Shown in pieces: positions 2,303 through 9,985 of a stretch of 64,000 nucleotides of DNA. Position 1 is the first letter of the stretch. The number at the start of each line of letters is the position of its first letter. This DNA is from Cupriavidus pauculus (GTDB lineage Bacteria > Pseudomonadota > Gammaproteobacteria > Burkholderiales > Burkholderiaceae): assembly GCF_003854935.1 (NCBI RefSeq), contig NZ_CP033969.1, positions 3,534,001 to 3,598,000 of the forward strand. Reading direction: 5' to 3'. Position numbers and translations under genes: made by a program. The notes under the pieces are model-generated. The model saw nothing but the letters and a program-made list of their open reading frames with translations, was not told the origin of the DNA and made no database searches.

Positions 2303-3844
2303 TCAGATCTGCGGGTTGATCTTCTGCACGGCCTTGTCGTGCAGCTTGTTCAGCGCGGCCAGGTAGGCCTTGGCCGAGGCGGCCACGATGTCCGGGTCGG
2401 TGCCTACGCCGTTGACGATGCGGCCGGCCTTCGACAGCCGCACGGTCACTTCGCCCTGAGCCTGGGTGCCGGCCGTGATCGCGTTGACCGAGTACAGCAC
2501 CAGTTCGGCGCCGCTCGACACGCGGCCCTCGATGGCATGGAGCGTGGCGTCGACCGGGCCATTGCCCTCGGCCTCGCCCACCTGCTCGGTGCCATCGGCG
2601 TTGAACACCACGCGGGCGTGCGGGCGCTCGCCGGTTTCCGAACGCTGCGACAGCGACACGAAGCGGTAGTGTTCGTTGGCGTGCTCCTGCTCCTCGTCGG
2701 ACACGATGGCCATGATGTCCTCGTCGAAGATCTCGGCCTTCTGGTCGGCCAGCTCCTTGAAGCGGGCGAACGCGGCGTTGATCTCGGCCTCGCTCTCCAG
2801 CTCGATGCCCAGCTCCTGCAGGCGCTGCTTGAACGCGTTGCGGCCCGAGAGCTTGCCCAGCACAATCTTGTTGGCCGTCCAGCCCACGTCTTCCGCACGC
2901 ATGATCTCGTAGGTGTCGCGCGCCTTGAGCACGCCGTCCTGGTGGATGCCCGAGGCATGCGCGAAGGCGTTGGCGCCCACCACGGCCTTGTTCGGCTGCA
3001 CCACGAAGCCGGTCACCTGCGACACGAGCTTCGAGGCCGGCACGATCTGCGTGGTATCGATGCCGACGTCCATGTTGAAGTAGTCACGGCGCGTCTTCAC
3101 GGCCATCACCACCTCTTCCAGGCTCGTGTTGCCGGCCCGCTCGCCCAGGCCGTTGATCGTGCATTCGATCTGGCGCGCACCACCCAGCTTCACGGCGGCC
3201 AGCGAGTTTGCCACGGCCATGCCCAGGTCGTTATGGCAGTGGACGGACCAGACGGCCTTGTCCGAGTTCGGAATGCGCTCGCGCACCGAGCGGATCAGCT
3301 CGGCATAGCCTTCCGGCACGGCGTAGCCGACGGTGTCCGGCAGGTTGATCGTCGTCGCGCCTTCGGCAATCACGCCTTCCAGCACGCGGCACAGGAAGTC
3401 CATATCCGAACGGCTGCCGTCCTCTGGCGAAAATTCGATGTCGTCGGTGAACTGCCGCGCAAAGCGCACAGCCAGGCGGGCCTGTTCGTAGACCTGGTCC
3501 GGCGTCATGCGGAGCTTCTTCTCCATGTGCAGCGCCGAGGTGGCGATGAACGTATGGATCCGGAACGAGTTGGCCGGCTTCAGGGCCTCGGCGGCGCGGG
3601 CGATGTCCTTGTCGTTGGCGCGGGCCAGCGAGCAGATCGTCGAATCCTTGACGACCTGGGCGATCGAGCGGATGGCCTCGAAATCGCCGTTGGAGCTGGC
3701 CGCAAAGCCGGCCTCGATCACATCGACCTTCAGGCGTTCCAGCTGACGCGCGATGCGAATCTTCTCTTCGCGGGTCATGGACGCACCGGGCGACTGCTCG
3801 CCGTCGCGCAAGGTGGTGTCGAAAATGATGAGTTTGTCAGACAT
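2303..3844 (-). CDS. leuA: 2-isopropylmalate synthase
   Basis: LeuA condenses 2-ketoisovalerate with acetyl-CoA, the first committed step of leucine synthesis. The 513-residue length is normal for the long bacterial form. The N-terminal TIM barrel starts at [20 protein letters not shown], which carries the metal-binding Asp and catalytic Arg of the DRE-TIM family. [16 protein letters not shown] and the NGLGERAGN stretch are also present. The C-terminal 150 residues form the LeuA regulatory domain that binds leucine in the family. The start at 3844 has AGGAG eight bases upstream and matches the family N-terminus; an upstream in-frame extension runs through the attenuator and is rejected. Expression is probably attenuated by the leader peptide and terminator just upstream, in addition to feedback inhibition. 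Confidence 0.97.
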
Positions 3845-3925
3845 TTGTGGAGCTCCTGGGCTGTGCCTTATGTGCTGTACCGCTGGCCCGCCTTCACCAC
3901 GCCGGGCATTCGGATCGGAATGCAA

Positions 3926-3961
3926 AACGCCCCGGCGTGCATGGATGCAGGCCGGGGCGTT
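3926..3961 (-). terminator. leuA attenuator hairpin
   Basis: On the minus strand an 11-bp stem (AACGCCCCGGC pairing with GCCGGGGCGTT) encloses a second 5-bp stem (TGCAT/ATGCA) and is followed by a short T run (GTTTTGC). It lies 47 bases past the leader-peptide stop and about 80 bases ahead of leuA. That is the position of the terminator in ribosome-mediated attenuators. The T run of four is short, so termination efficiency is uncertain. Confidence 0.75.
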
Positions 3962-4007
3962 GAAAAATCCTTGTGATTTCCGCGCTAGGGGCGAACCGTC
4001 GATCCCT

Positions 4008-4088
4008 TTAGCGCGCGCGCGTCCCGACCCGATGGCCTAGTAGGCCACCTAGGGTGGTGCGGGCGATTAGGATCTGGCGCGAAATCAT
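4008..4088 (-). CDS. leuL: leucine operon leader peptide
   Basis: A 26-codon reading frame ATG to TAA encoding [18 protein letters not shown] followed by HRVGTRAR. All four leucines (codons 7, 13, 16 and 17) are CTA, a codon that is very rare in this GC-rich genome, where the neighbouring genes use CTG almost exclusively. Two of them are adjacent. This is the signature of a leucine-sensing leader: shortage of charged tRNA-Leu(CUA) would stall the ribosome and prevent the downstream hairpin (3926-3961) from forming. The frame also contains overlapping inverted repeats (CCACC/GGTGG and GGCCTA/TAGGCC) that could be the alternative stems. No Shine-Dalgarno is present, and the predicted transcription start is at or within two bases of the ATG, so it may be translated as a leaderless message. 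Confidence 0.82.
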
Positions 4089-4095
4089 GTCGGCG

Positions 4096-4124
4096 ACTAT
4101 AGCCGGTTTGCCAGCGGCGCGCAA
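4096..4124 (-). promoter_or_regulatory. promoter of the leuL-leuA transcript
   Basis: Minus-strand TTGCGC (4124-4119) and TATAGT (4101-4096) are separated by exactly 17 bases, a good sigma-70 match. They fit in the 51-base gap between the kbp stop and the leader peptide. The first purines after the -10 are at 4090 and 4088, the latter being the A of the leader ATG. Confidence 0.72.
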
Positions 4125-4139
4125 CCGGCGGCAACCCGG

Positions 4140-4643
4140 CTATTTCGGCGGGATGCGCAGCTTCTGACCCGGGTAGATCTTGTCCGGGTGCGTCAGCATC
4201 GGCTTGTTGGCCTCGAAGATCTTGTTGTACTCGGCGCCGTTGCCGTACGCCGCCTGGGAAATCGCCCAAAGCGTGTCGCCCTTGACCACGGTGTGCCACT
4301 GCGATGCGTCGGTCTCCACGTTGACCGACATCTTGTCCTCCACCGACGCCACGCCCTCGACGTTGCCGCAGCACAGGATGATCTTCTCGCGCGTGGCCTG
4401 GTCCGGGGCCACGCCGAACACGGTCACCTTGCCCCGCGAGCCATCCACCGTCACGGTCAGCCCGGTGGCGGAGAGCCCCATCTGGGCGATGTACGCCTCG
4501 ATCGCGTCGCCGGCCGCCCGGTTGGCCGCCTCGGCCTTGTCGGCCGCGCCGGGATTGGCCGTGGCCGCATCCTGGGCCGCCTTGGCCTCGCCCTTGCCGA
4601 ACAGCTTCTCTCCCGCTTCCTTGATGAAGTCGAACATGCCCAT
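4140..4643 (-). CDS. kbp: BON and LysM domain protein, Kbp (YgaU) type
   Basis: A 167-residue soluble protein. The start MGMFDFIKEAGEKLFGKGE resembles E. coli Kbp/YgaU. An Ala-rich linker (about 20-45) is followed by a BON domain (about 45-110, with VTVDGSRGKVTVFGVAP) and a C-terminal LysM domain (about 115-165, HTVVKGDTLWAISQAAYGNG to IYPGQKLRIPP). E. coli Kbp (149 residues) is a cytoplasmic potassium-binding protein; that role is transferred by family resemblance only. AAGGAG precedes the start. It lies between pssA, which ends in its own terminator, and the leu promoter, so it is likely transcribed by itself. Confidence 0.8.
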   Translation of the reverse strand: MGMFDFIKEAGEKLFGKGEAKAAQDAATANPGAADKAEAANRAAGDAIEAYIAQMGLSATGLTVTVDGSRGKVTVFGVAPDQATREKIILCCGNVEGVASVEDKMSVNVETDASQWHTVVKGDTLWAISQAAYGNGAEYNKIFEANKPMLTHPDKIYPGQKLRIPPK

Positions 4644-6580: not shown

Positions 6581-7615
<1,035 letters not shown>

Positions 7616-7730
7616 TCAGATCTTCGTATTTGGGGTGGCGGCGCAGCGACCCACGGGTGCGTGCGGGCGCCGCGCTGCTTCGGGATACTGCTGTCGGCTT
7701 GTGGCCGTGCTCTGTTGCCGGGGGCGCCGG

Positions 7731-8222
7731 TCAGACCTTCAGGATGCGCTCGCCGCGGCCGATGCCGGAGCCGCCCGTGCGGACGGTTTCCAGGATCGCG
7801 GTGCGGTCGATGGCATCGAGGAACGCATCCAGCTTGCCGCCGTTGCCGGTCAGCTCGATGGTGTACGTCTTTTCGGTCACGTCGATGATGCGGCCACGGA
7901 AGATGTCGGCCGTGCGCTTCATTTCCTCGCGCTCCTTGCCGACCGCGCGGACCTTGACCAGCATCAGCTCGCGCTCGATGTGCGCGCCTTCGGTCAGGTC
8001 CACCACCTTGACCACCTCCACCAGCCGGTTCAGGTGCTTCGTGATCTGTTCGATCACGTCGTCCGAGCCGGTGGTGACGATGGTCATCCGCGACAGCGAC
8101 GCATCCTCGGTGGGGGCCACCGTGAGCGTCTCGATGTTGTAGCCACGGGCCGAGAACAGGCCCACCACGCGCGACAGCGCGCCGGGTTCGTTTTCCAGCA
8201 GGACCGAGATGATGTGACGCAT
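7731..8222 (-). CDS. ilvH: acetolactate synthase small (regulatory) subunit
   Basis: Regulatory subunit of acetohydroxyacid synthase; confers valine sensitivity and full activity on IlvB. The 163-residue chain has an N-terminal ACT domain (MRHIISVLLENEPGALSRVV, residues 1-75) and the C-terminal ALS_ss domain ending ERILKV. Its ATG overlaps the ilvB stop by one base (TAATG), implying translational coupling that keeps the subunits in proportion. Confidence 0.96.
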   Translation of the reverse strand: MRHIISVLLENEPGALSRVVGLFSARGYNIETLTVAPTEDASLSRMTIVTTGSDDVIEQITKHLNRLVEVVKVVDLTEGAHIERELMLVKVRAVGKEREEMKRTADIFRGRIIDVTEKTYTIELTGNGGKLDAFLDAIDRTAILETVRTGGSGIGRGERILKV

Positions 8223-9985
8223 TACAGGTCCTCCACGCCGAGCAGCATTTCGGAGATACCCTTGCCGGCCTGCACCATCGGCCACACGTTTTCCGTGGGG
8301 TCGGTCTGGAAGTCCAGGAACACGGTACGGTCCTTCAGGCGGAACGCCTCGCGCAGCGCCGGCTCGACGTCGGACGTCTTCTCGACGCGCATGCCCACGT
8401 GGCCATACGACTCCGCCAGCTTCACGAAGTCGGGCAGCGCGGTCATGTAGGAGTGCGAGTAGCGGTTGTCGTACTCGATCTCCTGCCACTGGCGCACCAT
8501 GCCCAGGTAGCCGTTGTTCAGCGAGCAGATCTTGACCGGGGTGTCGTACTGCAGGCAGGTCGACAGTTCCTGGATGCACATCTGGATCGAGCCTTCGCCC
8601 GTGATCGTGACGACTTCCTTGTCCGGGAACGCCTTCTTGATGCCCATCGCGTACGGCAGGCCCACGCCCATCGTGCCCAGGCCGCCGGAGTTGATCCAGC
8701 GGCGCGGCTCGTCGAACTTGTAGAACTGCGCGGCCCACATCTGGTGCTGGCCGACGTCGGAGCAGACGAACGCGTCGCCCTTGGTCAGTTCCCAGATCTT
8801 TTCCACCACGTATTGCGGCTTGATGATCTCGGAGTTGCGGTCGTACTTCAGGCAGTCCACCGAGCGCCATTGCTCGATCTGGTCCCACCACTTCGCCAGC
8901 GCCTCGCGCTTGGGCTTGACGTCGCTGGCCTTGATCTGGGCGATCAGTTCCTGCAGCACATCCTTGACATTGCCGACGATGGGAATGTCCACCTTGACGC
9001 GCTTCGAGATCGACGACGGGTCGATGTCGATGTGGATGATCTTGCGCGCCTGGGCCGTGAAGTGCGCCGGGTTGCCGATCACGCGGTCGTCGAAGCGGGC
9101 GCCGATGGCGATCAGCACGTCGCAGTTCTGCATGGCCATGTTGGCTTCATACGTGCCGTGCATGCCGAGCATGCCGACGAACTGCTTGTGCGTGCCCGGG
9201 AACGCGCCCAGGCCCATCAGCGTGTTGGTCACCGGGTGGCCGGTCAGTGCCGCCAGCTCGCGCAGCTCGTCGCTGGCATTGGCCAGCACCACGCCGCCGC
9301 CCGAGTAGATGTACGGGCGCTCGGCGCCCTGCAGCAGCGCCACGGCCTTGCGGATCTGGCCCGAGTGGCCCTTGTTGACCGGGTTGTACGACCGCATGTC
9401 CACCGCCTTCGGGTACTCGAAGCGGCAGGCATTGCGCGACACGTCCTTCGGGATGTCCACCACCACAGGGCCGGGACGGCCCGTGGCGGCGATGAAGAAC
9501 GCCTTCTTGATCGTCGCGGCCAGGTCGCGCACGTCCTTGACCAGGAAGTTGTGCTTGACGATGGGGCGCGTGATGCCGACGGTATCGCACTCCTGGAACG
9601 CGTCCTGGCCAATGGCGTGGGTCGGCACGTTGCCGGTGATCACCACCATCGGGATCGAGTCCAGGTAGGCCGTGGCGATGCCGGTCACGGCATTGGTCAC
9701 GCCGGGGCCCGAGGTCACCAGGGCGACGCCGACCTTGCCGGTCGCGCGGGCATAGCCATCGGCGGCATGCACGGCGGCCTGCTCGTGGCGCACCAGGATG
9801 TGTTCGAATTTCTTTTGCTTGTGGAGCTCGTCGTAGATATAGAGCACTGCGCCGCCGGGGTAGCCCCAGACGTACTCGACGCCTTCTTCGGCAAGTGCAT
9901 TGACGAGGATTTCCGCTCCGATCATTTCGCGAGCGGAGGATGAATTGCTGTCTGCGTGGGAGAATTCCGCGCTGGGCATGTTCAT
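8222..9985 (-). CDS. ilvB: acetolactate synthase large (catalytic) subunit
   Basis: Catalytic subunit of the thiamine-diphosphate and FAD enzyme that makes acetolactate from pyruvate; 587 residues. The N-terminal EEGVEYVWGYPGG holds the catalytic Glu; the TPP/Mg site is ITGEGSIQMCIQELST with a downstream NNGYLG, using Glu where many enzymes have GDGS. The chain ends GKGISEMLLGVEDL. The start at 9985 (MNMPSAEF) was chosen for an AAAGGA five to six bases upstream; 9979 is possible. It is the first gene of ilvBHC. A predicted promoter at 10130-10158 leaves a leader of nearly 140 bases, long enough for leader regulation. Confidence 0.96.
   Translation of the reverse strand: MNMPSAEFSHADSNSSSAREMIGAEILVNALAEEGVEYVWGYPGGAVLYIYDELHKQKKFEHILVRHEQAAVHAADGYARATGKVGVALVTSGPGVTNAVTGIATAYLDSIPMVVITGNVPTHAIGQDAFQECDTVGITRPIVKHNFLVKDVRDLAATIKKAFFIAATGRPGPVVVDIPKDVSRNACRFEYPKAVDMRSYNPVNKGHSGQIRKAVALLQGAERPYIYSGGGVVLANASDELRELAALTGHPVTNTLMGLGAFPGTHKQFVGMLGMHGTYEANMAMQNCDVLIAIGARFDDRVIGNPAHFTAQARKIIHIDIDPSSISKRVKVDIPIVGNVKDVLQELIAQIKASDVKPKREALAKWWDQIEQWRSVDCLKYDRNSEIIKPQYVVEKIWELTKGDAFVCSDVGQHQMWAAQFYKFDEPRRWINSGGLGTMGVGLPYAMGIKKAFPDKEVVTITGEGSIQMCIQELSTCLQYDTPVKICSLNNGYLGMVRQWQEIEYDNRYSHSYMTALPDFVKLAESYGHVGMRVEKTSDVEPALREAFRLKDRTVFLDFQTDPTENVWPMVQAGKGISEMLLGVEDL

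Follow-up and report, generated by a model that had tools for sequence, protein, structure and literature searches.

Enterobacterial leucine operons are preceded by leuL, a short leucine-rich leader open reading frame (ORF) with CUA control codons, followed by competing hairpins and a terminator before leuA. Rare leucine control codons in the leu leader also figure in the title of a paper in the reference list of PMC1183508. Leaderless leader peptides have been described elsewhere. Specifically, the ilvBNC operon of C. glutamicum has a leaderless leader peptide, a three-hairpin attenuator and a hairpin shielding the start codon (PMC11857589), in S. meliloti the 5' end of the trpL attenuator RNA is the ATG of the leader ORF (PMC7298713), and S. 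lividans has leaderless leaders for leuA, leuS, trpE and ilvBHC (PMC8079986). For S. coelicolor, the relevant part of PMC1262725 states that leuA mutants did not fit classical attenuation. In addition, the transcription start maps of C. metallidurans (PMC7563307) and B. cenocepacia (PMC4603805) contain many leaderless mRNAs; leuA is unnamed in the main texts of both, and in that of PMC2965389.

In this study, we analyzed a window of Cupriavidus pauculus DNA, that is, the whole stretch of 64,000 nucleotides, in which a leader ORF stands before leuA, a gene that we name by our own recognition of its protein. The observation itself, a leader with CTA codons, a promoter and a hairpin before leuA, was confirmed as real, and its parts are as follows.

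4119..4124, minus strand: -35 element TTGCGC, of which TTGC is invariant in 34 Cupriavidus rows
4096..4101, minus strand: -10 element TATAGT, 17 nt from the -35 element and 7 nt from the ATG
4088, minus strand: predicted transcription start, the A of the leader ATG and the eighth base past the -10 element
4008..4088, minus strand: leader ORF leuL, with its ATG at 4088 and 26 codons plus TAA
4068..4070, minus strand: codon 7, CTA, which is CTA in 24 of the 29 Cupriavidus rows with leucine there
4050..4052, minus strand: codon 13, CTA, which is CTA in 31 of 34 Cupriavidus leaders and CTG in three
4038..4043, minus strand: codons 16-17, CTA CTA, kept as CTA in 34 of 34 Cupriavidus leaders; the modelled switch falls between them
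3927..3960, minus strand: terminator hairpin (segments 3:4), with a T run at 3924-3927; the 13 pairs counted in it do not change across 30 distinct rows
3853..3857, minus strand: leuA Shine-Dalgarno sequence AGGAG
2303..3844, minus strand: leuA, 2-isopropylmalate synthase, 513 aa, starting at 3844

The Cupriavidus leader resembles the leuL of Salmonella and E. coli in its leucine-rich ORF, rare leucine codons, modelled competing hairpins and terminator before leuA, but it lacks a Shine-Dalgarno sequence and, as predicted, a 5' leader. It would work in the manner of the classical leu attenuator, and a start of transcription at the predicted site would also place it beside C. glutamicum and S. 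meliloti with their leaderless attenuators. With ilvBNC it shares a three-hairpin layout and, as predicted, a start codon shielded by structure and the leaderless leader peptide, but operon, phylum, control codons and sequence differ, and in Cupriavidus the start codon would pair with a segment before the terminator (PMC11857589). The S. meliloti trpL RNA likewise has its 5' end at the leader ATG, predicted here, but serves a Trp operon in an alphaproteobacterium (PMC7298713). The S. lividans leuL1 and leuL2 are also leucine-rich and leaderless (the latter predicted here), with leuL1 before leuA, but leuL1 has, in the account drawn on here, no typical Rho-independent terminator (PMC8079986). 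A leaderless attenuator or leader, which the earlier note had called unusual, is already published for S. meliloti trpL, C. glutamicum ilvBNC and S. lividans; leaderless attenuation is known as a kind, and the betaproteobacterial leuA case would add a member to it. We found no account of a betaproteobacterial leuA attenuator in literature that covered little of the subscription journals, which is weak evidence of absence. Rfam at its gathering score had no match in 3600-4400, and Rfam, Pfam and NCBIfam had none to the tested leaders (8 loci and 5 leader peptides; a peptide of 17 residues was too short). Close to the leader, Rfam gave sub-threshold hits alone (PtaRNA1, ncS54 and others, E 0.24 or worse), which were not taken as identity; ncS54 was dropped because PMC5688073 ranks it, where it is mentioned, among independent sRNAs.

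Re-reading of the leader frame gave leucine codons 7, 13, 16 and 17, all CTA, and no other leucine codon, just as the earlier note had described, and the rarity of CTA that it had assumed was borne out in the window, with 7 of 1462 leucine codons across 37 window ORFs chosen by a rule on GC content by codon position. Against this usage, four CTA codons out of four have a probability of about 5e-10. A search for conserved CTA runs in relatives, which had been proposed as a check, gave the pair at codons 16-17, invariant in Cupriavidus. In the 34 Cupriavidus leaders together, 125 of 161 leucine codons are CTA, whereas leuA itself, taken from 36 Cupriavidus loci (two of them duplicates), uses it for 2 of 1229. 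The genome has one tRNA-Leu gene for UAG, three for CAG and one each for GAG, CAA and UAA, as counted in 14 tRNA matches (the 13 longest and one more) among 64. The leader has 26 codons in 33 of 34 Cupriavidus rows and 35, nine more, in L022. ORF columns are gap-free in the other 33 rows, and the distance from the stop codon to the terminator core ranges from 42 to 54 nt.

The strong hairpin with a T run noted earlier before leuA was mapped at 3960-3927, 47 nt from the leader frame; it is GC-rich and followed by TTTTGCATT. An intrinsic terminator sits between the leader ORF and leuA, although a consensus scanner called neither a promoter nor a terminator in 3800-4200. The gene upstream, on the minus strand like leuA and presumably LysM-like as judged by eye, ends at 4140, and about 50 bp separate its stop codon from the leader ATG. 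Farther upstream on the same strand, at window positions 6581-9985, lie genes that we take by recognition to be ilvI, ilvH and ilvC, and reading of the sequence gave no obvious leader peptide before ilvI.

The promoter TTGCGC-17-TATAGT is where it had been placed, its end 7 nt before the ATG, and the absence of a Shine-Dalgarno sequence was also upheld, the stretch between the -10 element and the ATG reading cgccgac. The form TTGNNN-17-TATANT-7-ATG occurs at three sites in the 6.18 Mb genome, one of which is the leuA leader. Transcription had been proposed to start either at the A of the ATG or two bases before it. C/A is a favoured context for transcription start, and the base preceding the ATG is C in 48 of the 50 Cupriavidus and Ralstonia-group regions, so the first position is the likelier, and transcription likely starts at the A of the leader ATG; the second, with a pyrimidine two bases before the ATG in 16 of 50 regions, fits less well.

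For comparison, leuA upstream regions of 283 loci were used, comprising 106 after removal of 4 duplicates, 40 from the family, 88 from the order and 49 from the class. The family sample was chosen among the matches listed of 179 matching family genomes, the order sample took 88 of 94 non-self matches (L169, with only 34 nt before leuA, was left out) and the class sample 49 of 52; in tblastn, the leuA start positions of 16 other loci differ by 3-6 nt from those used. The leaderless pattern TTG-(16-18)-TATANT-(5-9)-ATG with an ORF of 15-50 codons was present in every distinct region of Cupriavidus (34 of 34) and of the Ralstonia group (16 of 16), always with spacings of 17 and 7 nt, as well as in 47 of 92 other distinct L039-L150 regions, 42 of 88 order regions and 11 of 49 class regions. 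The version with 17 nt and 6-7 nt spacing was found with such an ORF in 97 of 146 leuA upstream regions vs 1 of 29,200 dinucleotide shuffles, a comparison in which 4 of the 146 are duplicates and real regions were searched up to 450 nt, shuffles over their last 300 nt. In a less biased test, ORFs were picked solely by their leucine cluster and -10-like hexamers were located within 35 nt; these lay 6-7 nt before the ATG in 72 of 78 cases (L001-L150), 32 of 56 in the order and 13 of 23 in the class, a single region being able to contribute several of these cases. Of the 88 order regions, 40 have a leader with a leucine cluster and a -10 element 6-8 nt ahead of the ATG, as do 17 of the 49 class regions. 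Since 26 of these 40 and 10 of these 17 have no CTA, vs 1 of 89 in L001-L150, the leaderless arrangement is wider than the choice of CTA.

These counts weigh on the alternative that survives best, a leucine attenuator with an ordinary 5' leader, transcribed from an upstream start or by readthrough from the gene ending at 4140, in which TATAGT would be incidental. The scanner makes no promoter call here, TTGCGC matches the -35 consensus at only 3 of 6 positions and the upstream stop codon is close to the leader ATG, all of which would suit it; however, it leaves unaccounted for a geometry invariant in 50 of 50 Cupriavidus and Ralstonia-group regions, the 6-7 nt peak in the wider samples and an ATG with no Shine-Dalgarno sequence before it. 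We regard this alternative as improbable.

None of 200 dinucleotide shuffles folds as well as the RNA that runs from the ATG to beyond the hairpin (z -4.18). Three of its elements upstream of the terminator are as follows.

4031..4049, minus strand: hairpin 1:2 over codons 16-17, GGUGGCCU-ACU-AGGCCAUC, paired in 97.5% of cells, with no double-sided change
4020..4029, minus strand: segment 2, GGUCGGGACG, the proposed antiterminator arm, whose partner is 3950-3959; 99.6% of cells pair, with no covariation
3981..4015, minus strand: hairpin burying the leader stop codon, paired in 89% of cells

For 33 Cupriavidus rows, a ribosome with an assumed footprint of 30 nt was placed at each codon in turn and the nascent RNA was folded as far as the 5' arm of the terminator; L022, which is 27 nt longer, was left out of this model, the alignment and the closing-helix test below. 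Modelled sequestration of the arm by upstream RNA averaged 0.84-0.87 when any of codons 5-13 occupied the A site, 0.65-0.71 for codons 14-16 and 0.29-0.34 from codon 17 through the stop; a stall at the last CTA gave 0.30, below the 0.41 of the RNA with no ribosome. When a ribosome is stalled, the arm pairs mainly with nucleotides -18 to -8 from the stop, which correspond to segment 2. By these values, a stall at CTA codon 7, 13 or 16 would promote readthrough, but one at codon 17 would not; folding of the leader alternatives, another check proposed earlier, thus favoured the antiterminator through codon 16 but not from codon 17. The Ralstonia-group model (17 rows, one a duplicate) gave 0.86 at the second-last CTA, 0.61 at the last, and 0.55 both at the stop and without a ribosome. 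Fourteen hand-picked leaders of another type (e.g., MKKISLALLLSANGPRR), nine of which we take to be Comamonadaceae from their family or genus names, share this logic but not the sequence; they averaged 0.99 with the ribosome at the third-last leucine codon, 0.75 at the second-last, 0.42 at the last, 0.34 at the stop and 0.55 without a ribosome, with three also high at the stop (L107 0.89, L085 0.70, L108 0.65). Compared with shuffles, the antiterminator duplex by itself stood out in 0 of 33 Cupriavidus rows, in 12 of 17 of the Ralstonia group and in 4 of 18 from elsewhere. Little covariation that could prove structure was found in the 33 Cupriavidus rows, where the arms vary too little, segments 2, 3 and 4 being near invariant in nucleotides.

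Taken together, the conservation of CTA, the invariant promoter-ATG geometry and the stalled-ribosome folding argue for a ribosome-mediated attenuator of leuA with a leader peptide translated from a leaderless transcript, which, as far as sequence and modelling carry, is very probably what this locus is. The switch between terminator and antiterminator is computed, and the leucine response, the translation of the leader and the start site are inferred. RNA polymerase would begin at the A of the leader ATG and a ribosome would load on the emerging 5'-terminal AUG. When leucine is plentiful, the ribosome would clear the CTA codons and cover segment 2, so that the terminator would form and leuA would go untranscribed. 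When charged tRNA-Leu(UAG) is scarce, it would stall at CTA 7, 13 or 16, segment 2 would take up the 5' arm of the terminator by pairing, and transcription would enter leuA; a stall at codon 17 itself would come too late in the model. The earlier suggestion that leaderless initiation would couple 70S ribosomes directly to leucine supply finds no support, because initiation at a 5' AUG would set timing only and leucine would enter at elongation over the CTA codons.

A second alternative is that RNA structure regulates and translation does not, the ORF being incidental and the hairpins acting for a protein or an sRNA or in plain termination. Much of what was seen could come from selection acting solely on the RNA, given the near invariance of segments 2, 3 and 4, variable ORF columns with no excess at third positions and a single in-frame indel, but such selection would hardly put a rare CTA at fixed codons, nor would it make other clades with different peptides keep a run of leucines directly ahead of the segment that can pair with the terminator arm. 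This alternative appears very improbable. A chance short frame before leuA with no regulatory role, although the frame is lost in the relatives L051 and L054 and none is shown in L065 and L074, has next to no likelihood against the codon probability and the 97 of 146 regions vs shuffles given above.

In addition to the attenuator of leuA proposed here, the Cupriavidus leaders show a long-range closing helix at the 5' end of the RNA, with the following predicted arms.

4077..4087, minus strand: 5'-end arm of the closing helix (codons 1-4), pairing with 3974-3985
3974..3985, minus strand: the opposite, 3' arm of this helix, immediately ahead of the terminator

The first 12 nt, which take in the start codon, are complementary to the stretch before the terminator with a mean z of -4.18, below -1.64 in 33 of 33 Cupriavidus rows, which share ancestry and are not 33 independent cases. 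Of ten other windows compared, the overlapping 7-18 averages -1.67 (17 of 33) and the rest range from -0.70 to +1.09. The 3' side varies (GGAAATCA, GGAATCA, GAAATCC, GAAGTCG) with pairing retained. In the alignment, only 65.6% of cells pair, as the aligner leaves the 3' arm ungapped, and the helix was hence tested row by row; it reached p<=0.05 in 33 of 34 Cupriavidus rows vs 0 of 17 Ralstonia-group rows. The RNAalifold consensus has no closing helix and pairs nucleotides 8-18 with 60-71 instead, and the helix has bases in common with the stop-codon hairpin. As a general feature it was rejected on the Ralstonia-group count and on the argD leaders described below, and it was kept as specific to Cupriavidus. 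By analogy with the hairpin that covers the leaderless start codon of C. glutamicum ilvBNC (PMC11857589), it could plausibly block the loading of a second ribosome once the terminator region is made.

A wider reading would make leaderless initiation the usual state of the leucine leaders of leuA across Burkholderiales and in some further lineages of the class, as part of a wider leu and arg strategy, with the 5' start codon in Cupriavidus then shut by the pre-terminator pairing so that one pioneer ribosome per nascent leader would decide the outcome. We rate this wider reading lower and consider it rather unlikely, because the hairpin-plus-T-run rule found a terminator after none of 41 Burkholderia-type leaders (L041-L077, L128-L150). 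By the same rule, terminators follow 6 of 46 order-sample and 3 of 18 class-sample leaders, and termination outside the Cupriavidus, Ralstonia and Comamonadaceae type is less clear. The attenuator proposed for leuA would itself show leaderless translation to be a conserved component of the machinery by which Burkholderiales control their amino acids. ORFs of leader size are easily missed by annotation in this order; the B. cenocepacia start-site study limited its screen of orphan and antisense starts to ORFs of at least 50 residues (PMC4603805). The leader also offers a defined, conserved substrate for studying the timing of leaderless initiation relative to RNA polymerase.

Several observations concern the other lineages. 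L041, L062, L050, L053, L064 and their kin (Burkholderia, Paraburkholderia, Caballeronia, Trinickia) have leucine leaders of the leaderless type and no rule-based terminator. An A-poor, C-rich stretch (A 0.12, C 0.37 over 36 leaders) lies past the stop, a hairpin GCGTCGCC/GGTGGCGC stands before leuA, and TTTT occurs somewhere in 20 of 36 spacers; a Rho-dependent or another ending is possible there. Four Paraburkholderia (L048, L051, L054, L061) keep the TTGC/TATAGT promoter before leuA, with the leader frame lost or very short, and no leader was seen before leuA in L065, L074 and others. The Mycetohabitans type is a natural exception to the 6-7 nt rule, the ATG of its leucine-containing frame lying 13 nt after the -10 element in L042 (= L128) and L129 and 12 nt after it in L076. 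In the Pandoraea type (L039, L040, L133-L135), the same -10/ATG spacing goes with few leucines in most frames. In the class sample, several of L180-L204 and L271-L281 have TTGGCAA...TATAGT or TATATT 6-7 nt before the ATG, and their peptides end in LLLP or LRLP, mostly without CTA.

A second leader of the leaderless type was found outside the window, at C2:1524629-1524667 on the minus strand, where the arginine-rich MNTAILRRRARTLLPSGVPRG stands ahead of a terminator-like hairpin, which carries a T run, and of argD, acetylornithine transaminase (NF002985, 784 bits). It is another of the three sites that match TTG-17-TATANT-7-ATG exactly; the third opens a five-codon frame only, and relaxed spacing for TTGC and TTGA starts gave no additional sites in the genome. 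The DNA of the argD leader has a match in 29 of 30 Cupriavidus genomes, and in all 25 loci read (L307, L308, L309-L332), TTGACA-17-TATATT-7-ATG, the arginine cluster and the hairpin are kept. Its 5' end pairs weakly with the pre-terminator stretch (z<-1.64 in 4 of 25). Modelled as above, arm sequestration was 0.77-0.87 with a ribosome at -15 to -10, the position of the arginine cluster, 0.54-0.67 from -7 to the stop and 0.56 without a ribosome. Possibly, then, the argD leader is an arginine attenuator.
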